This document shows, piece after piece, positions 3,530-63,628 of a DNA stretch of 64,000 nt. Within the stretch, counting starts at the first letter, position 1. Every line of letters starts with the position of its first letter. The notes under the pieces were generated by a model. That model did no database searches and was not told the DNA's origin. It worked only from the letters and a program-made list of their open reading frames with translations. Origin of the DNA: Heloderma charlesbogerti. Its lineage: Eukaryota; Chordata; Lepidosauria; Squamata; Helodermatidae. The stretch is from positions 2,482,501-2,546,500 of the forward strand of contig JANEZZ010001956.1 of NCBI GenBank assembly GCA_026122225.1. Direction: 5' to 3'. Both the position numbers and the translations under genes were made by a program.

Positions 3530-3765
3530 GGGGCCAGAAAGGCTATAGGGAAAAACAGGCATCACTTTAAATTCCTATCTTGCAGCTATATCGTCTTTTC
3601 ATTTTTACTCTAGAGTAGGTGCAGGGCCCCCACTCTGGATCACAAAACCAGCGGGGGGGGGGCTTTTAAGAACTGGATGTGGGCCCTGCACCTACTCTAG
3701 AGTAAAAATGAAAACGGCATCAAGGCTAGATACAGATTTAAAGTGATGTCTGTTCTGGCCCTTCA
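3530..3765. mobile_element. Foldback (long inverted repeat) element
   Basis: Perfect 34-bp arms at 3596-3629 and 3681-3714 (core ACTCTAGAGTAGGTGCAGGG) around a ~51-bp loop with a G-run. Complementarity continues outward with gaps: the 'catcactttaaat' and 'ggccagaa' motifs near 3535-3573 are answered by 'atttaaagtgatg' and 'ttctggcc' near 3735-3762. No coding potential. It is a MITE or foldback element of unknown superfamily. Confidence 0.75.
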
Positions 3766-18763: not shown

Positions 18764-19348
18764 TAGGGATGTACAAATCCCTTACCTGGTTCCAGTCGGG
18801 GCATCTGGGGGCGGGGAGGCGATCCATCCCTCCCCCCTGGAATCCTCCTCAGCTGGCTCCGCTCCGCAGCAAAGCCACAGAGCCACCTGCCAGGGCCAGC
18901 CGCAGCCGGACTTCTGGCTGCTGCTGCCATGCTGCGGACTCAAATGGCGGCTGCTACACCGGCCACCATTTGTGTCCCTGCCTTAGGCCATGATAGGCTA
19001 TGTAAGTATTTACGTAGCCTATAATGGCAAAGAGCAGGGACGCAAATGGCACCCATTACGCCATTTGCATCCCTGCTCCTTTCGTGATAGGCTACATAAA
19101 TACTTACATAGCCTATCACGGCCTATGGCAGGGACGCAAATGGCGGCCGCTACGACGGCCGCCATTTCATTCCTCAGGGCTGCAGAAGGAGGATGACCCG
19201 ACCTGGAGCATCCGTCGCCAGGTAGAGTCCATCCCGGGAGGATTTTGGGGGGTGGGGGGGTAGTCCATTCCGCCACGGACTCCAGGGGGCCGGATTCCAA
19301 AGAATCCGGCCTCACTGGAGTCCATGGCAGATTTCTCCAACATCCCTA
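18764..19348 (+). mobile_element. PAL element copy 1: hAT-like MITE with hairpin array
   Basis: 585 bp with inverted ends TAGGGATGT... and ...ACATCCCTA and a perfect 8-bp TSD GTCTGGTG (18756-18763, 19349-19356). 'Plus' here means the TAGGGATGTAC end comes first. Between GC-rich flanks lies an alternating array of two hairpin classes: B (AAATGGCG core) at 18941-18972, 19032-19078 and 19138-19167, and A (GATAGGCTACGTAAAT core) at 18986-19028 and 19083-19120. The end domain repeats 'gactcca...ctggagtcc' as another inverted pair. No protein is encoded. The terminal pattern and TSD length point to hAT; movement would need a transposase supplied elsewhere. Confidence 0.9.
18941..19167. repeat. Alternating B-A-B-A-B hairpin array of PAL copy 1
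   Basis: Five consecutive inverted repeats, each 30-47 nt, spaced about 50 bp centre to centre. Best arms: GAGCAGGGACGCAAATGGC with GCCATTTGCATCCCTGCTC (one mismatch), and AAATGGCGGCCG with CGGCCGCCATTT (perfect). Confidence 0.9.
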
Positions 19349-19544: not shown

Positions 19545-19735
19545 TTGGTATACCATCTTAACTGCGATGACTGGATGCCTGATTTCATCTGATCTCGGAG
19601 GCTAAGCAGGCTCATCCCTGGTTAGTACTTGGAAGGGAGACCGCCTGGGAATCAGGCTTCCTGCACTGAGCAGGGGGGTTGGACTCGATGGTCTTGTAGG
19701 CCACTTCCAACCCTATGATTCTATGATTTTATGAC
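19545..19735 (+). mobile_element. 5S rRNA-derived SINE with LINE-like tail
   Basis: Positions about 19545-19655 match vertebrate 5S rRNA in its internal promoter region: 'ctgatctcggaggctaagca' (box A region), 'ctggttagtacttgg' and 'gggagaccgcctgggaat' (box C). The true 5S ending is replaced by a tail 'ggggggttggactcgatggt' to 'ttctatgattttatga'. The same tail is found on L3/CR1-like copies at 38760-38815 and 41466-42055. It is therefore a retroposed chimera, not a working 5S gene. Confidence 0.8.
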
Positions 19736-20175: not shown

Positions 20176-20181
20176 CCAATT

Positions 20182-20284
20182 AACAGCTCTGGATGCATCA
20201 GAGAGACTTGAGTGCAGGGGTCACAAGTGGGGAGGGAACTTGTGATTCCTGCACCCAATGCTCTGATGCATCCCGAGCTGTTCA
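20182..20284. repeat. Inverted repeat (hairpin)
   Basis: AACAGCTCTGGATGCATCAGAG at the left pairs with CTCTGATGCATCCCGAGCTGTT at the right with one bulge. Inside, 'gtgcaggggtcacaag' pairs with 'cttgtgattcctgcac'. Element class unknown. Confidence 0.65.
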
Positions 20285-20549
20285 TTAGCTCTGCACTGCT
20301 GACATTGCCGGAGATCTTCTCCCATCAGATTCTGAATGGTGGCCACCATTTTTTAAATCCAAAAGGAGCAAAGCTTCATGGTGATGTAATGTCACTCTGA
20401 CTAGAGTAGTGGGAAATAAATAGTGGATGCCAGCCAGCAACTCCAGAAGAAGAGCTCCACTGGGGGCAATAGGTATCTGTAATATTGTTCCCTGCCTCCC
20501 AAATGCGTCAAGCTGTTCCTCCCTATTTCATCACCATTGAACAGGGTAG

Positions 20550-23927: not shown

Positions 23928-25920
23928 TGGCTTAAATTGAAGAACGTAGGGAAAACCACTAAACCATTCAGGTATAACCTAAATCTTACCCCTTATGAAT
24001 ATACAGTGGAGGTGAGGAATAGATTTAAGGGATTAGATGAGGCTTTACAAGTAGCTGAGGAAAGAAGGGAAGTGAAAAGCAAGGGAGAAAGGGGAAAACA
24101 TATCCAACTGAATGCAGAGTTCCAGAGAATAGCAAGGAGAGACAAGAAGGCCTTCTTAAATGAACAATGCAAAAAAATTGAGGAAAACAATAGAATGGGA
24201 AAGACTAGAGATCTTTTCAAGAAAATCGGAGATATCAAGGGAACATTTTGTGCAAAGACAGGCATGATAAAGGACAAAGAAGGCAGGGACCTAACAGAAG
24301 CAGATGAGATTAAGAAGAGGTGGCAAGAATACACAGAAGAACTATACAGGAAAGATCTTAATGTCCCTGATAGCCATGATAGTGTGGTCACTGAACTTGA
24401 GCTGGCCATCCTAGAGAGTGAAGTCAAGTGGGCCTTAGGAAGCATTACTAACAACAAAGCTAGCGGAGATGACAGTCTTCCAGCTGAGCTATTTAAGATC
24501 CTAAAAGATGATGCTGTTTAAAGTGCTGCACTCAATATGCCAACAAATTTGGAACACTCAACAATGGCCACAAGACTGGAAAAGGTCAGTTTACATTCCA
24601 ATTCCAAAGAAGGGCAATGCCAAAGAGTGTTCAAACTACCGTACAATTGTGCTCATTTCACATGCCAGCAAGGTTACGCTCAAAATCCTACAAGCTAGGC
24701 TTCAGCAGTATGTGAACCGAGAACTACCAGAAGTACAAGCTGGATTTCGAAGAGGCAGAGGAACTAGAGATCAAATTGCCAACATTCGCTGGATCATGGA
24801 GAAAGCAAGAGAATTCCAGAAAAACGTCTATTTCTGCTTCATTGACTACGCGAAAGCCTTTGATTGTGTGGATCACAACAAACTGTGGCAAATACTGAAA
24901 GAGATGGGAGTACCAGACCACCTTACCTGTCTCCTGAGAAACCTGTACGAGGGTCAAGAAGCAACAGTAAGAACCAGACATGGAACAACCGATTGGTTCA
25001 AAATTGGGAAAGGAGTACGACAAGGCTGTATATTGTCGCCCTGCTTATTTAATTTATATGCAGAGTACATCATGAGAAATGCCGGGCTGGATGAATCACA
25101 GGTCAGAATTAAGATTGCCGGGAGAATTATCAACAACCTCAGATACGCAGACGATACCACCCTAATGGCAGAAAGCGAAGAGGATCTAAAGAGCCTCTTG
25201 TTCAGGGTGAGAGTGGAGAGTGCAAAAGCTGGTTTGAAACTCAACGTTAAAAAAACTAAGATCATGGCATCTGGCCCCATCACTTCCTGGCATATAGAAG
25301 GGGAAGAAATGGAAGCAGTGACAGATTTTATTTTCTTGGGCTCCAAGATCACCGCAGACGGTGACTGTAGCCATGAAATTAAAAGACGCTTGCTCCTTGA
25401 TAGGAAAGCTATGGCAAACCTAGACAGCATAATAAGAAGCAGAGATATCACCTTGCCAACAAAGGTTTGTATAATCAAAGCTATGGTTTTCCCAGTAGCA
25501 ACGTATGGCTGTGAGAGCTGGACTATAAGGAAGGCTGAGCGCTGAAGAATCGATGCTTTCGAACTGTGGTGCTGGAGAAGACTCTTACAAGTCCCCTGGA
25601 CTGCAAGGAGGTCAAATCAGTCAATCCTAAAGGAAATCAACCCTGAGTGCTCATTGGAAGGACAGATACTGAAGCTGAGGCTCAAATATTTTGGCCACCT
25701 AATGTGAAGAGAAAAGTCACTGGAAAAGACCCTGATGCTGGGAAAGATTGAAGGCAAAAGGAGAAGGGGATGGCAGAGGATGAGATGGCTAGATAGCATC
25801 ACCGATGCAATAAATATGGACTTGAGCACACTCCAGGAGAGAGCGCAGGACAGGAAGGCCTAGCATGCTATGGTCCATGGGGTCACGAAGAGTCGGACAC
25901 GACTTAACGACTGAACAACA
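23928..25920 (+). mobile_element. BovB (RTE clade) LINE, 5'-truncated, with 11-bp TSD
   Basis: About 1,993 bp containing the distal part of the single BovB ORF and the BovB 3' end ('gtccatggggtcacgaagag', 'gtcggacacgact', then an ACAACAA tail). TSD ACCCCACCTGT at 23917-23927 and 25921-25931. The insertion split an older minus-strand LINE. BovB replicates by target-primed reverse transcription and is known to be patchily distributed and horizontally spread among squamates and ruminants. The 5' endonuclease region is missing, so the copy cannot move itself. Confidence 0.93.
23937..25899 (+). pseudogene. BovB ORF relic: linker and reverse transcriptase
   Basis: First segment up to 24519 (VGKTTKPFRYNLN... 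to ELFKILKDDAV) covers the end of the region before the RT. The joint FKGLDEALQVAEERRE appears shorter than usual for the family, suggesting an internal in-frame deletion. A 1-nt insertion of T near 24518-24520 shifts frame. The second segment, to 25545, carries RT motifs: GFRRGRGTRDQIANIRW, FIDYAKAFDCVDH, GVRQGCILSPCLFNLYAEYI and the catalytic YADD (LRYADDTTLMAESEED). In-frame TGA codons at 25543 and near 25705 and a TAG near 25860 interrupt the C-terminal part, which otherwise continues (RIDAFELWCWRRLL, MLGKIEGKRRRGW, MVHGVTKSRTRL). Confidence 0.92.
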
Positions 25921-29559: not shown

Positions 29560-30835
29560 AACCCTTGTTTGCAGAGTGACCAGTCTCAGCACGAAAGAGG
29601 AAATACATCACCAAAAAAGGTGCGCACACTTGCATAAAATTTCCATGTGCTGCTTTATATGTATAGATGCAGATTTAGTCATAATTACGGTAATGGAAAT
29701 GGAAATACAATCCATCTCACCATAGTGGGGAAGACAGTGACCACGTGACCTCTGTGCCTGCTACTCAGTCTCAGGGATGTGCAACACTGGGAATTCTGTT
29801 CTGTTTAACCCGATGGGATTCCACAGGGTTTCTGTTCTGTAAGCAACAGCGGACTGTAGCAGGGTTTTTTCCCCTGATTCCAGAAATGTTTTGTACGGGG
29901 GCGGGGGGTGCCTTTTGCACAATTAATAATTTGTGCAAATTGGATTATGGGGTGGGGGATCTTGAAATTTGCACAAATGGAGTCATAATTTTTAATGTTT
30001 TTTATGGGTGATCTTGCACAAGTGCACATGATCACAAGTCCGCCTGTCTACTACATAGCCCTGCAGCGGCATATTCCCCTCTTGTAAATATCCTTACCAG
30101 CCTAATCCTCTCCACACACTACTTCCTTTTGCCCAGCAGAGCCATATTCTCTGCGTATCAAAGAATTTGTCGATTTTTTCATCCTCCACGTAGGTGCTTC
30201 CAGATCAAAGTGGGGGCGGGATCACTGAAGGGAGGATGAAATTTACTTCTTTGACAAGGAGGAAATACTGTTCTGCTGGGCTAAATGAAGCAGTGTGTGG
30301 AGAAGATGAAACTGACAAAGGATATTTACAAGAGGGGAATATGCCTCTGCAGGGCTACCTAGTGGACAGGTGGACTTGCAATCATGCGCACTTGCACAAG
30401 ATCGCCATTTTAAAAAATAAATGAATAAATAAATAACCCATTTGTGCAAATTTCAAGAATCCCCCCAATCCAATTTGTGCAAACTGCCATCATTAAAAAA
30501 AAACAAAAAACACCACCCAGAATCTACGTATTGGATCAACTCGCTGCAGATCAAATCAACACCAGCAGGGGGAAATGGAACAAAATCCACCAGTGCCAAA
30601 CTTGACAAATCCATTGTGTTGTCACCCCCAAATGGAATTCTCATAATCTCTACTCTGTCTACTTTCCAGCTGCTAATTCCTGATGGGCAAAGTCAAGGTT
30701 TCTGCACCCCCTTCTTATGGTTCTTTATCTTTAACTTGGACCTGGCACCCCTACAAACAGAGGATGTGTTCAAATTGATGACTGAGAACCCGTCAAATAG
30801 AGGACTGCCCTCTGTAAAGTAGGATGCAAGGCCAC
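29560..30835 (-). mobile_element. Older hAT element (GGTGGCC family) split by another
   Basis: Left piece 29560-29771 ('agaggaaatacatcacc', 'aatccatctcaccatagtgg', 'gtgacctctgtgcctgctac') and right piece 30653-30835 ('ctgatgggcaaagtcaag', 'cttatggttctttatcttta', 'gactgccctctgtaaagtag') join into one copy of the family at 31930-32610 and 34690-35075. The split is caused by the element at 29772-30652. Confidence 0.6.
29772..30652. mobile_element. 881-bp foldback hAT-like element, near-palindromic
   Basis: Starts CAGGGATGTGCAAC and ends ATAATCTCTA. TSD CTCAGTCT / CTCTGTCT (29764-29771, 30653-30660; 7/8). The left half from about 29925 to 30185 is the imperfect reverse complement of about 30235-30485. 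For example 'atattcccctcttgtaaata' (30071-30090) pairs with 'tatttacaagaggggaatat' (30323-30342), and 'tttgtgcaaattgga' pairs with 'tccaatttgtgcaaa'. Noncoding. Confidence 0.8.
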
Positions 30836-30879: not shown

Positions 30880-31280
30880 ACATAGAAAGCTGCCATATAC
30901 TGGAGTCAAACTGCTGGTGCATCTTCTTAGCATTGTCTACTATGCTGACTAGCTGCGGCCATCCTGGGTGTCCAACAGGGGTCTTTTGCAGTTGGGTACT
31001 GAACCTGGGACTATTTGCATGCAAAGCATGTGGTCTGACTGCCAATGGAGGCTGGTGGCTCCGATTTTGGCGGGGCTGTGCTTCAATTCTGGGTTTCAGT
31101 CAGAACCAGCAAGAACTCCAAAGGAGCTATCCAGGGTGCTGAACCCATTTGGGGAAGAGGGATCAGCACCTTGGATAGCTCCTTTAGAGTTCTGGCTGGT
31201 TCTGACTGAAACCCAGAATGGATACACAGCCCAACCGAAATTGGAGCCACTGCTCCACTGCTGACTGCCTCTGAGCCCAC
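30880..31280 (-). mobile_element. tRNA-derived SINE, minus strand, split by a MITE
   Basis: 3' part 'catagaaagctgccatatac' near 30882, body 'cattgtctactatgctgact', then the head with 'ggtactgaacctgggact' (reversed box B) and 'catgcaaagcatgtggtct'. The tRNA-like head is interrupted at 31043 and the last bases resume after 31260. Confidence 0.65.
31043..31260. mobile_element. hAT-type MITE, CAGTGGAGGCTGG family, perfect TSD
   Basis: Ends CAATGGAGGCTGGTGGCTCC and GGAGCCACTGCTCCACTG, with perfect 8-bp TSD CTGACTGC (31035-31042, 31261-31268). Inner arms: 'ctgggtttcagtcagaacca' with 'tggttctgactgaaacccag'. Inserted in the SINE head above. Confidence 0.88.
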
Positions 31281-40002: not shown

Positions 40003-40255
40003 TAGGGATGGCGGAGAATTCCACCACGGACCCCAATGAGGCCGGATTCTAAAGAATCTGGCCCCCAGAGTCCATGGCAGAACAGAGCACTTATCTCCGC
40101 CTCCCTCCGGAATCCTCTTCGGCCAGATTCTCCTTGCGGCAATCCCGTGGAGCTGCCGGCCAGCTCCGGAGCGCCAGCGATACGGCTGCCATTGCTGTAT
40201 CTCTGGCTGAGGGGGATTGACTGCGGACGCAAATGGTGTCCAGTATGCCATTTGT
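40003..40255 (-). mobile_element. PAL element, truncated copy
   Basis: Starts TAGGGATGGCGGAGAATTCC, the end opposite to the TAGGGATGTAC end, so the copy is inverted relative to 40316-41128. It has the terminal domain ('ccacggaccccaatgaggcc', 'cagagtccatggcag'), the GC-rich flank and one B hairpin half near 40216-40256, then stops. No second end or TSD follows. Confidence 0.75.
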
Positions 40256-40315: not shown

Positions 40316-41128
40316 TAGGGATGTACAAAATTGGCCTTACCTGGCTCCGCCAGGTTCTGCTTGGGGGGAGGAGGCGCTCTGTCTGTCCCCCCGGAATCCT
40401 CCCCCCCGGAATCCTGGCCGGCTGGCTCCGCTCCGCAGGGATTCCGCGGAGCTGCCGGCTGGCTCCGCCAGCAGCCGGACATCCGGCCGCTGGCTAGCAG
40501 GGATGCAAATGGCGGCGGCTGTAGCCACCGCCGTTTGCGTCCCTGTAGTCAGCCGTGATAGGTTACGTAAATCTTTACATAGCCTATCACGTCTGACTTA
40601 AAAAAAAAACACATGCGCGTACGCAAATACGTAGCAGACGCGTACGTAGCAGACGCTATTTGCGTTCCCCCCTATTTTCGCCATCTTGGCCTATGTAAAT
40701 ATTTATGTAGACTAAAACGGACCAAAATAAGGAACGCAAATGGCGGTGGCCATAGCCGCCGCCATTTGCGTACGCGCGTTGTTGTTTTTTTAACGTCAAA
40801 CGTGATACGCTACGTAACGATTTACGTAGCCTATCACGTCGTTTTTTGTTTTTTTTAACCTAGCCATGATAGGCTACGTAAATCTTTACGTAGCCTATCA
40901 CGTCTTTTTTTTTTTTAATACTGGAAATGGCGGTGGTAGCAGCCGGTCGGAAGACCGGCCGCCAGAGCCGCCACCGCACGGAAGATCCACCCCAGGTAAG
41001 TCTCGTCCCGGGAGGGATCTGCGGAGGGGCAGGGGGGTGGGAGGCTGTTCTGCCACGGAGTTCGGGGGGGCAAATGCACTGGCATTCAGCCTCACCAAGA
41101 TCCGTGGCGGAATTCTCTGCCATCCCTA
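40316..41128 (+). mobile_element. PAL element copy 2, longest plus-oriented copy
   Basis: 813 bp, ends TAGGGATGTACAAAA and CTGCCATCCCTA, with perfect TSD TTTAATTT (40308-40315, 41129-41136). Array: B 40499-40544, A 40551-40594, B 40621-40665, A 40686-40722, B 40734-40771, A 40799-40840, A 40866-40903. The last A has perfect 16-bp arms (40867-40882 and 40885-40900) with a 2-nt loop. Donor-like CAGGTAAGT is at 40993-41001 (plus) and CAGGTAAGG at 40335-40343 (minus). Flanks are GC- and CpG-rich. Noncoding hAT-like MITE. Confidence 0.92.
40499..40903. repeat. Hairpin array of PAL copy 2
   Basis: Seven inverted repeats of the two classes in the order B-A-B-A-B-A-A. B at 40734-40771 has perfect arms ACGCAAATGGCGG / CCGCCATTTGCGT. 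B at 40621-40665 instead has ACGCAAATA at one arm and TATTTGCGT in place of CATTTGCGT at the other, i.e. both arms changed together. A/T homopolymer runs separate the last units. Confidence 0.92.
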
Positions 41129-42868: not shown

Positions 42869-43329
42869 TAGGGATGGCAGAGAATTCTGCCACGGATCAC
42901 GGTGAGGCCGAATGCCAGTGCATTTGGCCCTCCGAGATCTGTGGCGGAATGGCCTGCCACCCCCCCACCCCCACCCCCCGCGGATCCCCCCGGGACAAGA
43001 CTTACCTGGGGCAGATCTTCCGGGCGGCGGCGGCTCCGGCGGCGGCTGGTCTTCCGACCGGCTGCCACCGCCGCCATTTGTGTATGTGGGTTTGTTTCCC
43101 CCCCCAGAGCCCTCCGCGGCCGGAAATCCAGCTGCAGATGGCTCTGGCCTGGCTGGGCCTGGCTGGATGCTCCGCGGAGCTGCCGCGGAGCACAGCCGGC
43201 CTCAGAGGATTCCAGGGGGGAGGAACGGATCGCCTCCCCCCCGGCGAGGATTCCAGGGCGAGGGACGGAACGCCTCCCCCCCACCATCAACAAAATCCAT
43301 GAAAGGTAAGTGACTTTCGTACATCCCTA
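42869..43329 (-). mobile_element. PAL element copy 3, lacks the hairpin array
   Basis: 461 bp, inverted orientation: TAGGGATGGCAGAG... to ...TCGTACATCCCTA. TSD ACTCAGAG / ACTCGGAG (7/8). Both GC-rich flanks are present, but the A hairpins are absent and only a half B unit ('ccgccgccatttgtgta') remains near 43070, so it is an internally deleted or array-less version. Outward donor-like motifs: CAGGTAAGT on the minus strand (43000-43008) and AAGGTAAGT on the plus strand (43303-43311). The overlapping 130-180-residue Pro/Arg-rich frames are CpG-rich chance frames. Confidence 0.88.
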
Positions 43330-45635: not shown

Positions 45636-46051
45636 CAAACAACCCCCAATCTCCCTTCATGTAGAAAACTAGGATCTCCGGAACCAAAGGAGGAGATTTC
45701 TTTTTGTTCTTGATATGGTATTTTACTGTGTCCAGAGAGATTTTTTCCCATGAGAAAGTATTCAAACATGCAGCCCTCTCTGCCTCTGTGCGACATGCAG
45801 TCCAGGAAAATATTTCACCACTTGCATGTGTGAACTGACGTGATGTCGGGTGCTATTGTAAAAAAATGTTCAAAATAGTGGCCTCACCACTGGTTCTTTA
45901 GCTGGCAGTCACATGCACCTATTCCTTTGCTTCTGGTTCTTTTTAAATTTGTCTTTTTTTGGTATTTGCAGTTCATTGTCGCATAAATATGTCTTTGTTC
46001 CTTTCACCTATTACTGAAAAACAATTTTAGTCTTTGATGATGTCCTAGGAT

Positions 46052-46969
46052 TAGGGATGGTGGAGAATTCCACCATGGATTTCAGTGAGGCCGAATGCAC
46101 TGGCATTTGGCTCCCCGAAATCCGTGGCGGAATGGCCTGCCACGCCCCCGCCACCCCGCAGATCCCCCCCGGGACGAGACTTACCTGGGGCGGATGTTCC
46201 AGACAGCGGTGGCTCCAGCAGTGGCTTCAGCGGTGGCGGCAGCTGGTCTTTTGACCAGCTGCTGCCGCAGCTGCCATTTGCAGTCTGGTCTTTTTTTTTT
46301 TTTACCCAGACATGATAGGCTACGTAAAGACTTACGTAGCCTATCATGTCTGGATTTTTTAAAAAAAGTCGTACGCAAATGGCGGCTATGGCCTTATTTT
46401 TTGCTGTTTTAGTCTATGTAAATATTTACGTAGACTATTACGGCGAATAAAAAGGGGAACACAAATAGCGTAGTGGGCACTATTTGTGTTCCTTTTTTAT
46501 TAGCCGTTTTAGCCTACATAAATATTTATGTAGGCTAGAACGGCGAAAAATGAAGGAACGCAAATAGCGCCCACTATGCTATTTGCGTTCCCCTTTTTTT
46601 CGCCGTTTTATCTTATGTAAATATTTACATAAGATAAATCAGCGAAAAATAGGGAACGCAAATGGCAGCTGCCATGGCCGCCGCCATTTGTGTATCCTGG
46701 GGGTTTTTTTGTGTGGGGGGTAGCCGTGATAGGCTACGTAAATTCTTACGTAGCCTATCACGGCTGCCTGGCTGGACGCCAATGGCGGCTGCTATGGCCG
46801 CCGTCATTTGCGTCCACAGCAGCCCGTCCACGGCCAGCTGCTCCGCGATCTGGCTGCAGAGCAGAGCTGGCTGTTGAGGATTCCGGGGGAAGCCCGGATC
46901 GCCTCCCCCCCATCCCCCCCCCACCGTGAAAGATTCCGCGAAAAGGTAAGTGGGTTTTGTACATCCCTA
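46052..46969 (-). mobile_element. PAL element copy 4, longest and best-preserved hairpins
   Basis: 918 bp, TAGGGATGGTGG... to ...TTGTACATCCCTA, with perfect TSD CCTAGGAT (46044-46051, 46970-46977). At least nine hairpins in about 510 bp: A 46307-46352 (perfect 21-bp arms), A 46411-46436, B 46456-46492 (perfect 13-bp arms), A 46504-46543 (perfect 26-nt core palindrome 46511-46536), B 46555-46591 (perfect 14-bp arms), A 46607-46638 (perfect 32-nt palindrome), B 46654-46692, A 46722-46765 (perfect 20-bp arms), B 46774-46815. Outward donor-like motifs: CAGGTAAGT (minus, 46179-46187) and AAGGTAAGT (plus, 46943-46951). No transposase is encoded. Confidence 0.93.
46307..46815. repeat. Hairpin array of PAL copy 4 with covarying arms
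   Basis: Class A units share the TAAATATTTA-like centre but their arms differ: GGCTACGTAA, AGCCTACATAAAT or TTTATCTTATGTAAAT, each with its own exact complement. Class B units likewise: GGAACACAAATAG versus GGAACGCAAATAGC versus AACGCAAATGGC. The array alternates A and B apart from the first two A units. Confidence 0.93.
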
Positions 46970-46984
46970 CCTAGGATGGTTTCG

Positions 46985-49029: not shown

Positions 49030-49617
49030 TAGGGGTGTACGAACCCCACTCTGCCCACCCCGGTCCGGGGCATCCACTGGGGGGGGAGGCGATCCGTCCC
49101 TCCCTCCGGAATCCTTTCTGGCCGGCTCCACTCTGCGGCAAGTCCGCGGAGCCACAGGCCAAGCCTGTCCGCAGCCAGACTTTTGTCCACTGCCATGCAA
49201 ATGGCGTCCGGCGTAGCGGACACCATTTGCATCCCTGCCCTTGGCCGTGATAGGCCATGCAAATATTTACGTAGCCTATCATGGCAAAGAACAGGGACGC
49301 AAATGGTGTAGTGGACGCCATTTGCGTCCCTGCCCTTGGCTGTGATAGGCTACGTAAATATTTACGTAGACAATCATGAAAAGAGCAGGGACACAAATGG
49401 CATCTGCTCTGCTACCCCGGACGCCATTTGCATCCGCAGCTCGGCAGGGGATGGCAGCAGACAGCAGCAGATGGACCCGGACTGGCCGGCGCCAGGTAGG
49501 GTCTGCCGGACTTCGTGGGGGGGGGGACAGTCCATTCCGCCACAGACTCCAGGGGGGGCGAATTCTAAAGAATCTGGCCTCACTGGAGTCTGTGGTGGAT
49601 TTCTCCGCCATCCCTAC
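49030..49617 (+). mobile_element. PAL element copy 5
   Basis: 588 bp, TAGGGGTGTACG... to ...CCGCCATCCCTA, TSD CTTGAGCC / CGTGAGCC (7/8). Array B 49195-49232, A 49243-49285, B 49292-49332 (perfect 15-bp arms), A 49339-49378 (containing the perfect palindrome CTACGTAAATATTTACGTAG at 49350-49369), B 49388-49437: the same B-A-B-A-B layout as copy 1. Noncoding. Confidence 0.92.
49195..49437. repeat. B-A-B-A-B hairpin array of PAL copy 5
   Basis: Arms include CAGGGACGCAAATGG / CCATTTGCGTCCCTG (49292-49332) and ATGCAAATGGCGTCCG / CGGACACCATTTGCAT (one mismatch). Unit spacing about 48-50 bp, as in copy 1. Confidence 0.9.
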
Positions 49618-54539: not shown

Positions 54540-55060
54540 TTTGCACGATCATGTGTTCCGGGTGCCTTTGTTACCCACGGCAACAAGCCACCCTCACCAG
54601 AGTTGCATGACATGACAAGCCACACAGGCAAGGGTAACTATGCAAATCCACCTGGCATATGACCGGCATGTACGGTGGGGGAAATAATTCACCATGGCTT
54701 ACTTCCTCCTCCATGATTGTTTGAACCTGATCTCTGACCTGGTTCTCACGACACAACAACCCATCATGGCTTAATTCACTGTGGCTTGCTGTGCATTGCT
54801 GTGTCATGCGAACCCAGGTGGCAGGGGTTGTTTGAGGGTTAGACAACCCTCAAATAACCCATGGTTTGTTTTAGGGTTATTTTGGGGTTGTTTAACCCTC
54901 AAAAAAACCCTGCCGCCTGGGTTCACACGACACGACATGACAACCCATGGCAAGCTGGGTACCCACAGGTGCCACGCAAAGATGGTGTCTGTGGGTGCTT
55001 GGCACAATGCAACAGCCGCCATGCGTAAATTAACCCACAGTGGGATGTCATTTCATATGA
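54540..55060. mobile_element. Long palindromic DNA element
   Basis: Core arms: about 54810-54841 (GAACCCAGGTGGCAGGGGTT...) and about 54891-54924 (...AACCCTGCCGCCTGGGTTC), 32-34 bp with a few mismatches. Outer arms with 'gacacaacaacccatcatgg' and 'gacatgacaacccatggcaa' motifs. The centre contains short 'ccctcaaataaccc' and 'gggttattttgggg' pairs. Confidence 0.65.
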
Positions 55061-57438: not shown

Positions 57439-57957
57439 TGTCAAGGGCTCCTTGGAGGCCTCTCTCAGTCTAAACCAGTAGCCAAGTCCAGACACAGACA
57501 AATGGATTCTTTTCAAAGCTTTATTCCTCTTTTACAACTTAACAACTCTACTGTTAGCAACTAGATATGAGCAGCAGAGTACGGTGGAACAGTTGGTCCC
57601 CGTTTGAAAGGGAATTACTGGCAGACCCCTGAACTTAAGGACTAGGGAGAGTCCCTCCCCTTTTCCCTTGGATCCTCCGGGCGCAGCCGTTGTTTGCGCG
57701 CCAACCGGGCACTACGCCTCCTTTCTGCGCTCTCCATTTGGCGCCGCTCTCTGCGTCGGCGTCGCGTATCCATCAAGTCTGCTTCCCGCGCTCTGTCACT
57801 CCCCGGACTGCTATCTAAGCTAGGAATGTTAGTGGGAGGAATCTCCGTCAGCTGTTGGCCCTGGGAAAGAGGAGCGCGCTCCCCTCCCAGGAGCGACTCC
57901 TCTTCCTCAGAATCAGAACTACTCTGGGATTCTATGGGCTCAGTGTCCACCCTGACA
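57439..57957 (-). repeat. Chromovirus 3' LTR (519 bp)
   Basis: In element orientation TGTCAGGG...CCTTGACA. It contains an AATAAAG polyadenylation-type motif (reversed 'ctttatt' near 57520) and encodes the last ~105 codons of the pol frame. It differs from the 5' LTR by scattered substitutions and two length changes (11 bp near 57582 and 5 bp near 57840). Confidence 0.95.
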
Positions 57958-58082
57958 TCATCCCCGCTCCCATGAGGCCCCCCCTCCTGCTCCTCCCCTG
58001 GGGCCCTGGGTTTGTGGGGGTACAGCTGGTGGAAGCGCCTCAGTAGCAACAGAGCATGCACATTTTCCGCGGGTTCCCAGGA
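57642..58082 (-). pseudogene. pol: Pol part 4: end of chromodomain and LTR-encoded tail
   Basis: Same frame as the integrase segment beyond the TGA at 58083. SWEPAENVHALLLLRRFHQLYP completes the chromodomain; a Gly/Glu-rich linker follows. The frame crosses the LTR edge at 57957 and continues for 316 nt inside the LTR. There it encodes an acidic/Ser stretch (SQSSSDSEEEE) and a strongly basic stretch (RRRRRERRQMESAERRRSAR), stopping at TAG 57642-57644. The basic part could bind nucleic acid or act in nuclear import; this is inference. The same-length open frame survives in the solo LTR at 20787-21102. Confidence 0.8.
57958..58010 (-). other. Purine-rich region next to the 3' LTR (candidate PPT)
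   Basis: Element strand has GGGGAGGAGCAGGAGGGGGG and then GGGAGCGGGGATGA abutting the LTR, suitable as a polypurine tract for plus-strand priming. It is also coding (pol tail). Confidence 0.45.
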
Positions 58083-59340
58083 TCACTCATCAGGCCCGTA
58101 CCCCTTCCAGTCCACCAGATATTGCAAGCGTCCACGAGAAAGGCGGGAGTCCAGAATCTCAGCAACCTCAAACTCCTCCTCCCCCTCCACCAGCACTGGC
58201 GGCAGGGGGGAGCCGACTGAGCAATGAGGGTCACCAGAAACCAGGGGGGACAGCAAGGACCGATGAAAAACAGGATGGATCTTCATGGAGGGGGGGAGAG
58301 CCAGGCAAAAAGCAACAGGGTTAATCTGGGCTGTAATCTGGAAAGGCCCCGTGAGGCGAGGCGCGAGCTTCCTTGCAGGCGAGTGAGAGGGGAGGTATTG
58401 GGTGGACAACCAAACCCAGTCCCCCGGTTGCAGAGACGGACCCGGCTGGCGCCGCCAGTCTGCAGAGGCCTTGTAGGCTGTCTTGGCTTGCTTGAGGGAG
58501 TCCCGTAAGAGGTGGTGTACTGCTCGCAACTCCTCTAAAAAGTCCTGGGCCGCTGGCACCAAAGAGAGAGCTAGGGTGGACGGTAAGGCCTTGGGGTGGT
58601 AACCAAAATTGGCAAAAAATGGAGTTTGGCGGGTGGAAGCATGGCAGGCATTGTTATAAGCAAATTCTGCGAGAGGCAGCAAGGAAAACCAGTCATCCTG
58701 CTGGTAATTGACATAACAGCGCAGATATTGCTCCAGAGTCGCACTGGTGCGCTCGGTCTGACCGTCCGTCTGTGGATGGTGGGCGGAGGAAAGACGGAGC
58801 GTCACATGGAGCAACGCAAGTAGCTCCCTCCAGAAATGGGGAGTGAATTGGGCCCCCCTATCCGAAATGAGACCCTTGGGCCATCTGTGGAGGTGGAAAA
58901 CATGTGCCACGAACAGCTCTGCCATCTCCCTGGCTGTGGGCAATCCAGAGCAGGGGATGAAATGGGCCATCTTAGAAAACAAATCCACCACCACCAGAAT
59001 AGTGGACTTACCGTGTGAGCGAGGCAAGTCAGTGATGAAGTCAAGGGAGAGCAGTTTCCAAGGTCCTGAGGGGGTAGGCAGGGGGTGAAGCAAGCCTGTG
59101 GGCTTGCCTGAGGGGGCCTTTGCCCGCTGGCAGGTTGGGCAGGAGGCGACATAGGACTTGACGTCCTGACACACACGAGGCCACCAAAAATCCCTCGTCA
59201 CTCCATGCAGGGTCTTGGCGACGCCAAAATGCCCAGCTGTGGGGGAGTCGTGGAACTGATGGAGGACCTTCTCGCGGAGGGGTCTAGAAGGCACATAGAC
59301 CCGGCCGGAATGGTAAAGCAGGCCACCTCGCAAAGAGAAG
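58083..59340 (-). pseudogene. pol: Pol part 3: integrase and start of chromodomain
   Basis: Joins cDNA to chromosomal DNA. Zinc-binding [15 protein letters not shown] and CPTCQRAK. Catalytic triad D98, D158 and E194 in the ORF numbered from 59333 ([30 protein letters not shown]), with the usual 35-residue D-E spacing, all intact. C-terminal GPFQI(T) and PVFHRSLL motifs precede a chromodomain ([21 protein letters not shown], then WKGYGPDE) that would bind modified histones and guide insertion. TGA at 58083-58085 (probably from CGA by CpG decay) truncates the chromodomain. Confidence 0.93.
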
Positions 59341-60417
59341 GGGGTAGAGTGGGGGGGCAGAGGCTAGCCCCAATTCCTCCACCTTTGTGCGAACAAAAGC
59401 ATCCTGAGCCTGTGCAGAGAGAAGGAGCTCCTCCCAAGAATGAGGTACCGCAGCTGCCGCCAGGCCTTGGGGGGGAAGAATCAGAGGGGGGGGGGAATTT
59501 TCCTCACTCCCTGGCTGGAGGTCAGGCTTACAAGAAAGAGCATCCGCTTGTAGGTTGTCTGAGGCTTTCACATGGCAAATCTTAAGGTGGAACCGAGAAA
59601 AAAAAAGCGACCACCTAATCTGCCGCTGGTTTAAGGCACGGGCTGTCTGAAGATGTTCCAGGTTGCGATGGTCGGTTCTAACTTCGACTGGGTGCTGTGC
59701 CCCCTCCAGGAGATGATGCCAGGTCTCCAAAGAGGACTTGATGGCCAACAGTTCCTTCTCCCAGATGGTATAATTCCTCTCAGACATGGTCAGTTTCCTG
59801 GAGTGGTAGGCACAGGGTTGCAGCCCACCGCCCTCCCGATCTGGCTGAAAGAGCACCGCCCCCACCGCGAAGTCAGAGGCATTGGTCTGCACTACAAAAG
59901 GCTTCCTCGGGTCAGGATGTAACAGGATCGGCTCAGAACTGAAAAGCTTCTTAAGTTCCTCGAAAGCCTGTTGGGCAGATGCTGTCCAATGAAAAGGAGA
60001 TTTCTTGCCCTTAAGGAGGTCCGTGAGAGGAGAAGTCAGACGAGCAAAACTGGGCAGGAACTTTCTGTAAAAATTAGCAAAACCCAGAAAACGTTGCAAG
60101 TCCTTCTTGGTGGATGGAGCCTGCCAGGAGAGGACAGCCTGGACCTTTGCAGGATCCATCCTGATACCGTCAGGCGAAATAATGTAGCCAAGAAAGTCCA
60201 AAGAGGTTAGGTCAAACGCACATTTCTCCAGCTTGGCATAAAGATGGTTCTCGCGGAGGCGCTGGAGGACGGCGGAGACATGAACCTGATGGGCGTGGGT
60301 GTCCTCAGAAAATATAAGTAAATCATCAAGATACACAATGAGGAAAGAGTCCAAATAGTCCCAGAAGATGGCATTCATAAAACGCGAAAAAGTGGTGGGG
60401 GGGGCAGGCGAGCCCAA
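59284..60417 (-). pseudogene. pol: Pol part 2: RT catalytic core and RNase H
   Basis: Resumes in another frame at PTTFSRFMN. It holds the RT catalytic YLDD (residues 29-32, near 60333), FLGYIISPDGI and WQAPSTKKDLQRFLGFANFYRKF. The RNase H region runs from FVVQTNASD through YTIWEKELLAIKSSLETWHHLL to VRTDHRNLEHL and ADALS. The first catalytic acid of the RNase H TDAS motif reads Asn (codon AAT at 59883-59881), a likely inactivating G-to-A change. The frame ends near 59340 where a 1-nt shift moves the sense to the integrase frame; the last residues of this ORF are out of frame. Confidence 0.9.
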
Positions 60418-61462
60418 AAGGCATTACTAGGTATTCATACGCTTCGTACCTGGTCCCGAAACTGGTCTTCCACTCATCCCCCTCCTGGATGTGAATGAGA
60501 TTGTATGCGTTACGCAGGTCCAACTTTGTGAAAATCTTGGCTCGCCCCAGGCGCTCCAGCATCTCAGGTATGAGGGGGAGGGGGTACTTGTCAGGAATGG
60601 AGACCGAATTTAGATTTCTGAAATCGTGCGCCGGGCAGAGCTCTCCAGATCGTTTGGCCACAAAGAAAGTAGGAGTGCAGGCGAGGGAGGAAGATGGGTG
60701 AATGAAACCACGTTTGAGATTTTTGTCCAAAAACTCCCGCAGAGCTCGAAGTTCTGGCTCCGACATTGAATACAGCCAGCCAGAAGGGATGGTCGCCCCC
60801 GGAATGAGGTTAATGGCACAGTCAAAAGGGCAGTGGGGGGGAAGCCGGTCAGCCTCCTTCTTGTCAAACACATCCCGAAAAGCTGCATACTTCTCTGGGA
60901 GGATGACGGTAGCTGAAGGACTGCCAGAAGCAGACAAGGAGGGGGAGGAAAGGGTTAAGGCCTGGGCTGGGACTGGCGCTTCCTCCAGGAGGCAATGCTC
61001 CCGGCAGTAGGGAGACGCAAACTCCACTTGCTGAAGCCCCCAAGAAATCTGAGGGTTGTGCTTAGAGAGCCAGGAAACACCCAGCACGATTGGGTATAAG
61101 GGAACCTTGGCTAAGTGAAACTGAATCTGCTCAATGTGGGACTGGGTGCGCAGAGTGAGCGGAACTGTAATACGGGTCACCGCACCCAAAGAGAGAGGAC
61201 GCCCATCAATGGTCTCCACTGCCAAGGGGGCAGGAAGGGGCAGGGTAGGAATTTTGTGGAAGAGGGCGAAGGTCTCATCCATGAAACTGGTCGTAGCCCC
61301 CGAGTCCACTAAAGCTAGGGCCTCCACCCCACCCCACTGAAAGGAGCGGAGGTGAACATGCAACAGCAGATGGGAGGGTGGGGGGGGTTGGGGAAGGCAC
61401 CCACCCGGTGGGGAACTGACCCCCACACTGGAGGCCCCCAACAAGCTTGGGGGGCAGTCTAG
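60326..61462 (-). pseudogene. pol: Pol part 1: protease and N-terminal reverse transcriptase
   Basis: In phase with gag after its TGA. The aspartic protease active site is VDSGATTSF (codons near 61306-61280), cleaving the polyprotein. RT fingers/palm follow: CPFDCAINLIPGA, FFVAKRSGELCPAHDFRNLN, FTKLDLRNAYNLIHIQEGDEWKT and EYLVMPFGL. The frame is lost in a C8 run (60400-60407 region) just after MPFGL; the sense frame is picked up by the next segment. Residues after that point in this frame are meaningless. No ATG start is expected. Confidence 0.9.
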
Positions 61463-61466
61463 TCAG
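61435..61466 (-). promoter_or_regulatory. Probable gag-pol readthrough signal (UGA-CUA-G plus stem-loop)
   Basis: The gag stop is TGA followed by CTAG, a context known to favour stop-codon readthrough. The pol frame continues in phase without another stop. Eight nt after the stop (CTAGACTG) the element strand forms a stem CCCCCAA / TTGGGGG with loop GCTTG (61453-61435). A second possible stem GTGGGG / CCCCAC follows. Readthrough rather than the -1 frameshift of Sushi-ichi/PEG10 is inferred from the frame relation. Confidence 0.6.
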
Positions 61467-62410
61467 GCCTGGGGACGAGGAGGAGGAGGAGGGGGAAGGA
61501 GAGGAGGAGGAGGCAGCGGAGCTGTGGATTTAACTCGGCAGGTCTTGGCGAAATGCCCCAGCTTTCCACATCGAAAACATCGGCGCTCAGCACACCGGCG
61601 CTCAAGCTCCTCTGGCGGCAGTGAGGCTCGGGTAGCTCCCAGCTGCATCAGGGTCTCCTCCACCCCCAACGCCGGAGCGGGTGGTGGGGGAGGAGGCAGG
61701 AAACGTGGGGGAATGGGAGGAGGGAAATCCTGGCCCCTGGCGCCCTGCCGGGTCTGCCAGCACCCCTCCAGCCGACTATCTATCTGAAGGCAGGACTGGA
61801 TGAGGTCCTCCAAAGTAGGCGGGCTGGGCGTGCGTGCTAACTCATCTAAGATCTCGTCGTTCAAACCATCCAAAAACTGAGCCACTAGTGCAGCATCATT
61901 CCACTGTAAATCCTGCATCAGCAAGCGAAAGATTGTCACGTAGCTGGAAACTGAGTCCTTGCCCTGCTGGAGGCGGCGTATCTCCCGAGAAGCCGTCTGT
62001 GTGCGCAGGGGGTCACCAAAAAAAAGTGCCATGGCTGTCATGAAACCTTGATAGTCCCCGAGCAGGGGGTCATTAGTGAGTAGGAGCCCCGAAGCCCATT
62101 TAGCTGCCATGTCTGACAGTAGGTTAATGATGAAACCCACACGAACCTGTTCCGTCTGGAAATCCTCAGGCCTAAGACGCATGTACAGCTCTGATTGGGC
62201 CCTGAAAATCTGAAAAAGTCCTTTCTCACCAGAAAACTTCTCTGGCAAAGCCACTGGGCACTTACGGCGGGGGGGGGGAATCGGAGGTGGAGGGGGTTGA
62301 ACCGCAGCCTGTAGATTCTGCATGGCAGCCGTCAGTTGAGCCATCTGATCACGGAGCATCAGGTTCTTTTGCGCTAGAGCTTGCACCGCTGGGTCCCCGG
62401 CACCCTCCAT
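61463..62410 (-). CDS. gag: Chromovirus Gag, 315 aa, intact
   Basis: Structural protein that packages the element RNA into cytoplasmic particles. The start is the ATG at 62410 (MEGAGDPAVQ), the first in frame after the LTR and primer site; the open frame upstream runs through the LTR. N-terminal ~40 residues look coiled-coil (ALAQKNLMLRDQMAQLTAAM), then a Pro-rich linker, then the retrotransposon Gag domain (about residues 52-210, with FSGEKGLFQIFRAQ, AAKWASGLL and IRRLQQGKDSVSSY). A single CCHC zinc knuckle CFRCGKLGHFAKTC lies near residues 287-300, with Pro-rich stretches around it. Similarity is to Sushi-ichi Gag, the ancestor of mammalian PEG10/RTL genes. It ends at TGA (61463-61465), with pol continuing in the same frame. 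Confidence 0.9.
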   Translation of the reverse strand: MEGAGDPAVQALAQKNLMLRDQMAQLTAAMQNLQAAVQPPPPPIPPPRRKCPVALPEKFSGEKGLFQIFRAQSELYMRLRPEDFQTEQVRVGFIINLLSDMAAKWASGLLLTNDPLLGDYQGFMTAMALFFGDPLRTQTASREIRRLQQGKDSVSSYVTIFRLLMQDLQWNDAALVAQFLDGLNDEILDELARTPSPPTLEDLIQSCLQIDSRLEGCWQTRQGARGQDFPPPIPPRFLPPPPPPAPALGVEETLMQLGATRASLPPEELERRCAERRCFRCGKLGHFAKTCRVKSTAPLPPPPLLPPPPPPRPQA

Positions 62411-62451
62411 AAGGCAGTAGGAGAAAAAAGAGAGAGGGAAAAAAAAAAAGA

Positions 62452-62465
62452 GGAACAGGGACCAA
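62452..62465 (-). other. Candidate tRNA primer-binding site
   Basis: Just inside the 5' LTR the element strand reads TGGTCCCTGTTCC, beginning 2 nt after the LTR. A TGG start complements the universal CCA 3' end of tRNA. I cannot name the tRNA with confidence. Confidence 0.5.
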
Positions 62466-62467
62466 GC

Positions 62468-63002
62468 TGTCAAGGGCTCCTTGGAGGCCTCTCTCAGTCT
62501 AATCCAGTAGCCAAGTCCAGACACAGACAAATGGATTCTTTTCAAAGCTTTATTCCTCTTTTACAACTTAACAACTCTACCGTTAGCAACTAGATATGAG
62601 CAGCAGAGTACCTATGCCCTACGTTGCAACAGTTGGTCCCCGTTTGAAAGGGAATTACTGGCAGACCCCTGAACTTAAGGACTAGGGAGAGTCCCTCCCC
62701 TTTTCCCTTGGATCCTCTGGGTGCAGCTGTTGTTTGCGCGCCAACCGGGCACTACGCCTCCTTTCTGCGCCCTCCATTTGGTGCCGCTCTCTGCCTCGGC
62801 GTCGCACATCCATCAAGTCTGCTTCCCGCGCTCTGTCACTCCCCGGACTGCTATCTAAGCTAGGAATGCCGGTGGGAGGAATGGAATCTCCGTCAGCTGC
62901 TGGCCCTGGGAAAGAAGAGCGCGCTCCTCTCCCAGGAGCGACTCCTCTTCCTCAGAAGCAGAACTACTCTGGGATTCTATGGGCTCAGTGTCCACCCTGA
63001 CA
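62468..63002 (-). repeat. Chromovirus 5' LTR (535 bp)
   Basis: Same sequence as the 3' LTR with an 11-bp excess near 62612-62628 and a 5-bp 'ggaat' duplication near 62879-62887. The duplication would break the pol-tail frame if it were in the 3' copy. Confidence 0.95.
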
Positions 63003-63470: not shown

Positions 63471-63628
63471 TAGCAGAGGCTGGTGCCTCTGATGTCAGTG
63501 GGGCGGTGAATCTGCTCTGGGTTTCTGCGGAGCACCTTGGATAGCTCCTTTAGAGTTCTGACTGGGTCTGACTGAAACCCGGAGCAGATTCACCGCCCCA
63601 CTGACACTGGAGTCTCCAGCCTCTACTA
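63471..63628. mobile_element. hAT-type MITE, (C/T)AG..GAGGCTGG family, perfect TSD
   Basis: 158 bp, TAGCAGAGGCTGG to CCAGCCTCTACTA, perfect TSD ATAGGATG (63463-63470, 63629-63636). Inner arms 'cagtggggcggtgaatctgc' and 'gcagattcaccgccccactg' are perfectly complementary. Confidence 0.92.

Follow-up and report, generated by a model that had tools for sequence, protein, structure and literature searches.

How can the arms of a row of hairpins differ from one unit to the next while each arm keeps a complementary partner? This question is raised by an array within positions 46052 to 46969 of a 64,000-nucleotide stretch of Heloderma charlesbogerti DNA (the window; GC content, 0.47; observed/expected CpG ratio, 0.33). 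A sequence-only reading of the stretch had offered fold-back copying, mutual correction of the arms by gene conversion, or selection of the structure as possible answers. The analysis described below favors, with a probability of about 78%, a non-autonomous hAT-like MITE-type transposon whose nested-palindrome middle was made by fold-back copying. The first of the three answers is thus retained, with the copying placed in the amplified masters rather than in the copy seen at this locus.

The element and its hairpin array

The hairpins of the array make up the core of a non-autonomous, MITE-type DNA transposon of 918 bp with hAT-like ends, designated C4. Its terminal inverted repeat consists of the ends TAGGGATG and CATCCCTA, and the element is bounded at both sides by a perfect 8-bp target-site duplication (TSD). 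The window holds five copies of the family (C1 to C5) and one truncated copy starting at 40003. All five full copies have 8-bp TSDs, three of them perfect and two matching at 7 of 8 positions.

18764 to 19348, forward strand: copy C1, hairpin order B A B A B, TSD GTCTGGTG present twice
40316 to 41128, forward strand: copy C2, TSD TTTAATTT present twice
42869 to 43329, reverse strand: copy C3, both ends present, no hairpin array, TSD 7/8
46044 to 46051: left TSD of C4, CCTAGGAT, 8 bp
46052 to 46969, reverse strand: whole element C4, 918 bp, read from its TAGGGATGTAC end
46970 to 46977: right TSD of C4, CCTAGGAT, 8 bp
49030 to 49616, forward strand: copy C5, hairpin order B A B A B, TSD 7/8

The same ends, TAGGGATG...CATCCCTA, were found in the consensuses of two genomic subfamilies, termed C4 type and C2 type, while the consensus of a third, the C5 type, starts with TAGGGGTG. 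The short terminal inverted repeats of the hAT superfamily are of the T/CAGNG type, and the family consensuses carry ends of this type. Long terminal inverted repeats, as in FB or Galileo elements, were absent from the family: the ends match over only about 8 bp, and the palindrome is central. Genomic copies likewise carried TSDs, at 8/8 in 15 and at 7/8 in 3 further of 24 C4-type copies (18/24 together), at 8/8 in 12 and 7/8 in 7 of 28 C5-type copies (19/28), and at 8/8 in 8 and 7/8 in 5 of 14 C2-type copies (13/14). No coding capacity was found in the family, and its copy number is high.

The array of C4 is laid out as follows.

46273 to 46286: single B arm at the outer end of the array
46306 to 46353: hairpin A5, perfect 22-bp arms and 4-nt loop, with a private paired change that is a CpG double hit
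46370 to 46698: core palindrome B2-A2-B3-A3-B4-A4-B5, with its center in A3 near 46523/46524
46370 to 46383: remnant of hairpin B5, the right arm remaining after a private 20-nt deletion
46402 to 46445: hairpin A4, central block GTC
46456 to 46492: hairpin B4, with the CpG double hit GGAACACAAATAG as its private paired change
46502 to 46545: hairpin A3, center of the core palindrome, central block GCC, private paired change a CpG double hit; holds the 26-nt palindrome
46555 to 46591: hairpin B3, loop core the inverse of that of B4
46601 to 46644: hairpin A2, central block TCT, private paired change a CpG double hit; holds the 32-nt palindrome
46651 to 46698: hairpin B2
46722 to 46765: hairpin A1, perfect 20-bp arms and 4-nt loop
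46773 to 46816: hairpin B1

The four palindromes quoted in the sequence-only reading (26 nt at 46511 to 46536, 32 nt at 46607 to 46638, the 20-bp arms with a 4-nt loop at 46722 to 46765, and A5) are present as written. The arms of A5 are indeed perfect, and they extend over 22 bp with a 4-nt loop rather than over the 21 bp at 46307 to 46352 given before. Nine two-armed hairpins, five A and four B, were also confirmed, while the apparent "A, A" start of the array proved to conceal the B remnant at about 46370 to 46383. Since C4 has lost 20 nt at B5 relative to the family consensus, the underlying order of A and B alternates strictly. What had been taken for two hairpin classes are the two junctions of a single monomer of about 50 nt that alternates in orientation, and the notion of two separate designs was dropped.

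Pairing in the window and decay in genomic copies

Folding of the C4 region as forward-strand DNA, forward-strand RNA, and reverse-strand RNA, a check suggested together with the original observation, gave z-scores of -25.9, -26.7, and -27.6, respectively. None of 100 shuffled sequences was equally stable in any of the three folds, which puts the stability far beyond chance. Among the window copies, the two arms of a unit resembled each other more closely than they did the arms of other units, for both A and B. The 13 A units showed 55 mismatches, whereas permutation gave 74.6 on average (49 of 20,000 permutations; 239 of 20,000 within copies), and the 14 B units showed 33 against 44.7 (24 and 1,363 of 20,000, respectively). 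The covariation score of the 13 A units was above that of column shuffles (0 of 500), and the five A units of C4 showed 7.5 same-branch compensated changes, compared with 0.97 under a tree-based null (0 of 2,000) that was built for this analysis and ignores column conservation. Under this null, the A units outside C4 gave no signal (776 of 2,000; covariation score, 103 of 2,000) and the B units outside C4 a weak one (82 and 140 of 2,000). In each of the five sets, percent pairing was above the null (0 to 3 of 2,000), as measured against an expectation that leaves conserved columns out of account. On the window data alone, the idea of covarying arms thus looked right.

One way to account for such data would be that the two arms of each hairpin repair each other after insertion, by quasipalindrome template switching or gene conversion; the greater likeness of arms within than between units and the strong signal in C4 are both in its favor. 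We then turned to the copies of the element elsewhere in the genome. A search of the 2.30-Gb assembly with C4 returned 16,267 first-look candidates, of which 40 were scored and 30 loci used. Four of these (L133, L134, L141, and L144) had flanks identical to those of other loci and were dropped, leaving 26 distinct C4-type copies for alignment. The copies were 5.9 to 12.0% from their 952-bp consensus, in which the hairpins were almost perfectly paired, both for B (19/19 in B1, 15/15 in B3 and in B4, and 16/17 in B2 and in B5) and for A (20/20 in A1, 36/36 in A5, 30/32 in A2, 28/32 in A3, and 29/32 in A4). Near-perfect hairpins were found in all three subfamily consensuses, that of the C2 type being built from 14 genomic copies plus C2 and that of the C5 type from 28 copies after removal of two duplicates. 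The paired differences between units, including the central blocks GGC, TCT, GCC, and GTC, were already present in the C4-type consensus; they are therefore older than the copies and are a property of the amplified master.

After insertion, the hairpin arms decay independently. At 171 non-CpG pairs in the 26 copies, we counted 4,103 intact cells, 224 single changes, and 104 gapped cells, and the double changes comprised 6 compensated and 9 uncompensated ones. Column shuffles gave 3.1 compensated doubles on average and reached 6 in 84 of 1,000 cases, so that the 26 copies showed no compensated substitutions above independence of the kind expected of a structured RNA. Five of the six compensated doubles were in one copy, L152, whose right half mirrors its left half. 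The other two subfamilies behaved alike, with 44 single changes and 1 compensated change at non-CpG pairs in the C2 type and 108 and 4, respectively, in the C5 type (counts without a shuffle control).

At 53 CpG pairs, 38 compensated doubles were observed against 47.6 expected (at least 38 in 972 of 1,000 shuffles). Where both mirrored CpGs had decayed, the outcome was complementary in 35 and non-complementary in 54 cases for the C4 type, 15 and 13 for the C2 type, and 35 and 43 for the C5 type. CpG transitions, i.e., double hits, account for all four of the compensated changes found in C4 alone (in A2, A3, A5, and B4); among them is the paired contrast between GGAACACAAATAG and GGAACGCAAATAGC that had been cited for class B. 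CpG decay at mirrored sites can thus mimic compensatory change.

The claim that the arms of C4 stay complementary while they change therefore does not hold against the other copies; the unit-by-unit alignment, proposed at the outset as a check, showed independent arm substitutions in the copies examined, the very outcome named beforehand as speaking against it. Arm correction in place, contradicted by the ratio of single to compensated changes, by the mirrored CpGs, and by the nature of the C4-private changes, was rejected and is in our judgment very improbable.

An artifact of assembling or sequencing hairpin-rich DNA would be a simpler source of perfect palindromes. Some places do recur with identical flanks (within L132 to L134; among L139, L141, and L144; and within L160 to L162), and these groups are either assembly duplicates or recent segmental copies. 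The core nevertheless recurs at many loci, so the palindromes are not unique to one place in the assembly, and the 26 loci have different flanks, mostly TSDs of their own, and each its own substitutions, which makes an artifact extremely improbable.

Substitution rates bore on two further explanations. At non-CpG sites, the rate relative to the flanks was 0.63 in the A cores and 0.77 in the B arms (three subfamilies with 25, 15, and 28 copies), with L152 and the sites having a minor base in at least four copies dropped. Unfiltered C4-type rates were 2.5% in the arms, 4.3% in the flanks, and 5.6% at unpaired sites of the array. Within the A arms, the inner 14 bp changed at 1.4% and the outer parts at 3.7% (22 copies, with L145, L149, L151, and L152 dropped). 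These values may be biased: the copies had been ranked by how closely they resembled queries bearing the array, which is perhaps why the arms change more slowly. The exact left 25-mer of the element occurred at 78 places; among 10 examined, 3 (L207, L208, and L215) tiled the full consensus in order and the remaining 7 were rearranged or partial copies. One locus, L214, had a doubled left end (c4 1 to 29 followed by 1 to 35) and a core inverted relative to the C4 consensus.

The slower arms speak for selection of the hairpins as a structured RNA or as a DNA structure that aids spread, as do the great stability of the fold and the near-perfect hairpins in three subfamily consensuses. Selection predicts an excess of compensated changes, which was absent from the inserted copies, although these copies do not bear on selection in the masters. 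Furthermore, C3 has the ends and a TSD but no array, and 46052 to 46969 gave no Rfam match at the gathering score. We consider a selected structure unlikely.

Alternatively, the arms might be putative repeated binding sites for a transposase or a host protein, by analogy with what has been proposed for the repeats inside the long terminal inverted repeats of Galileo (PMC3688188). Conserved motifs do repeat in every hairpin, and slow arm change would be expected of such sites. Perfect or core-wide palindromes are unnecessary for binding, however, and C3 was inserted without an array, unless the array was lost later. All in all, this explanation appears doubtful to us. As regards the motifs themselves, CAAATGGCGGC in the B arms (e.g., at 46658 to 46672) is what we take to be a YY1-site-like sequence, and AAACGG on the right side of A2 to A4 presumably resembles the motif of the Ac transposase.

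Palindromic masters and flipped loops

The paired differences between units are usually what is taken as evidence for a selected RNA. Here they occur with no compensated excess in the copies, probably because both arms were written together by fold-back mutation. The traces expected of such copying were sought in the consensuses. In the C4-type consensus, B2 and B5 are exact reverse complements of each other, as are B3 and B4, and the arms around the A3 center match at 154 of 162 aligned sites (4.9% apart), the center lying at 472/473, near the consensus midpoint of 476. In the C2-type consensus, a palindrome of 182 bp is perfect, and the arms agree at 147 of the 148 sites aligned (0.7% apart). 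The core of the C5-type consensus is mirrored about B2. At locus L198, two 950-bp modules each have a truncated B as their center, with 91 to 93% self-complementarity over some 500 nt. The palindrome centers therefore differ among the types (A, A3, B2, and truncated B), and near-identical mirrored arms about differing centers are what template switching is expected to leave.

Between subfamilies, the C2 and C4 arms are 11 to 18% apart (the lowest value coming from 65 sites only). The centers differ, and arms are far closer inside a subfamily than across subfamilies; both together point to fold-back having occurred repeatedly in the masters. These observations also bear on the alternative that all subfamilies inherited one ancestral palindrome that was never folded again, its centers being shifted by later deletions and duplications. 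The same monomer is common to all subfamilies, as that alternative would have it. The small distances within the C2 and C4 types compared with those between types, the differing centers, and the mirrored halves that L152 and L212 each have of their own argue against it, and we regard it as improbable. L212 consists of c4 1 to 386 followed by c4 383 to 232, inverted at 91%. Of its differences from the C4 consensus, 2 are common to both arms, 6 are confined to the left and 9 to the right; since few are shared, this fold predates most of the decay and is old rather than fresh. A smaller step was seen between A2 and A4, which differ by a small block paired within each (TATCTTACG versus TAGTCTACG), the rest of the palindrome being near-identical; at least one local arm-to-arm step is therefore also needed.

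We then determined the orientation of loops and units in the C5-type copies. Of the 28 copies, 16 had the B2 loop in forward and 12 in inverted orientation, and the central loop of C5 itself is inverted relative to its own subfamily consensus. Inverted loops between otherwise homologous units are a further trace of template switching. Combining the B2 loop with the types of spacer next to A1 and A2 gave 13 configuration strings, some of them ambiguous, and five strings were both unambiguous and present in at least two copies. Two copies, L166 and L172, match the exact inversion of the commonest arrangement, which was found in nine copies. Sites associated with loop orientation lay in or beside the right arm of A1 (lowest P, 1.5e-5), and the lowest P elsewhere was 0.004 (1,185 tests). 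This fits loop flips that are uncoupled from their flanks, in data that have little power for linkage and in which masters differing only by a flip look alike.

The fold-back reading can be put as a sequence of steps. During replication of a master or repair of the gap left by its excision, a polymerase would switch templates on reaching the apex of a hairpin and copy half of the core back as its mirror image. Each such event would perfect the hairpin at the apex and invert the neighboring hairpins, and a loop or unit could flip. The monomer of about 50 nt would in this way be set head to head and tail to tail, which would be read as alternating A and B hairpins. A hAT transposase would then act in trans on the ends of the folded master and so amplify it. 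The inserted copies would decay afterward, the core probably being a passenger. Against this reading stand the arm rates of 0.63 and 0.77 relative to the flanks, which a pure passenger would not predict unless ascertainment is their cause. The excess of percent pairing over the tree-based null in the window copies, the local step between A2 and A4, and the age of the L212 fold likewise count against it. It is also conceivable, and we offer this tentatively, that the transposition cycle itself keeps refolding and shuffling the core. Rounds of excision and repair would mirror a half or flip a cassette, making a natural shufflon without a dedicated recombinase in which the orientation states record fold-backs copy by copy.

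Mobility, known relatives, and other features of the window

The mobility of the family could be read from the paralogous loci L198 and L199. For three family insertions in L198, the corresponding empty site with a single TSD copy was found in L199, i.e., the precise insertion expected of a hAT element; the same three sites were sought in a further locus, L197, where one was found and two were not. One of the insertions (L198, 1554 to 2111; TSD, CATTCCAG) interrupts a hAT transposase gene and has its empty site in both L199 and L197. A composite transposon made of the two 950-bp modules of L198 and the hAT transposase between them was considered and discarded: the modules carry separate TSDs, and L199 shows an empty site for every one of the three insertions. 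Also rejected was GTACATCCCTA, near the L198 transposase, as the end of an autonomous element, homology between the loci continuing past it. Transposases of the hAT type are common in the genome (at least 150 matches, 871 candidates). Family ends around a hAT transposase gene, which would mark an autonomous partner, were found at none of the eight loci inspected.

We compared the family with known systems. It resembles hAT MITEs in its 8-bp TSDs, a short terminal inverted repeat starting with TAGGG, no coding capacity found, and high copy number, and differs from them in a core of nested palindromes whose center varies by subfamily. Bacterial BIME/REP arrays likewise have palindromic units of alternating orientation; unlike the present element, they are bacterial, unrelated in sequence, and not bounded by terminal inverted repeats and TSDs. 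Galileo, a foldback-type element of the P superfamily in Drosophila, shares the large inverted repeats with internal repeats and the dynamic structure, yet its repeats are terminal and its internal repeats direct, in contrast to the short ends, central palindrome, and alternating units found here. One Galileo study discusses template switching during gap repair as the origin of the variants of that element (PMC4168063). Template switching can create perfect stems in one event, compensated multibase changes, and inverted loops, as a study of hairpin mutations states (PMC8794818). All three have their likeness here, although that study deals with RNA genes, whereas the present case concerns transposon masters, longer palindromes (a perfect one of 182 bp), and no ongoing repair in the inserted copies. 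Microinversions, in which short segments are inverted exactly between inverted repeats, are described as events of 17 to 33 nt between species in another paper (PMC8755829); here, in contrast, copies of one element carry the same loop in either orientation.

Among the titles and opening lines of abstracts listed in literature searches, we found no squamate hAT element with such a core and no transposon family with a nested palindromic core, varied centers, and cassettes in both orientations. Non-autonomous hAT elements and the template-switch process being already known, what appears new is the nested palindromic core with varied centers and flipped cassettes. With its thousands of candidate copies, the family could allow template switching to be measured in the nuclear genome of a vertebrate as regards its start, tract length, and flip frequency. 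Relatives elsewhere were sought with a 15-mer of the A arm, which matched 109 stretches of genome contigs and 13 of viral contigs. Among the matches listed, 80 of them for the genome contigs, there was one 15-mer match per stretch, and so no mirrored arm, and they were treated as chance. Phage records gave no match.

Several other features of the window and the family are worth recording. GGTAAG motifs resembling splice donors face outward near both ends of the C4 consensus (position 24, reverse; position 826, forward), the C2 consensus (25 and 671), and the two modules of L198 (24 and 815/832), while the C5 consensus has, by the same motif, the left one only. Judged from sequence, these motifs could be remnants of promoter-exon units. 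At the gathering score, the only Rfam match in the whole window was to 5S rRNA at 19566 to 19657 (38.5 bits). It corresponds to the 5S rRNA-like head of a SINE adjoining copy C1, with a tail that we assume to be Sauria-SINE-like. A reverse transcriptase frame (RVT_1) lies at 24508 to 25545, and a Ty3-type LTR retrotransposon occupies 57439 to 63002, with gag, protease, reverse transcriptase, RNase H, integrase, and chromo domain in four frames and LTR-like ends that are 93.5% identical. Further self-inverted repeats, some of which share sequence, are located at 3554 to 3754, 20178 to 20286, 29930 to 30483, 31055 to 31250, 54801 to 54933, and 63471 to 63628.
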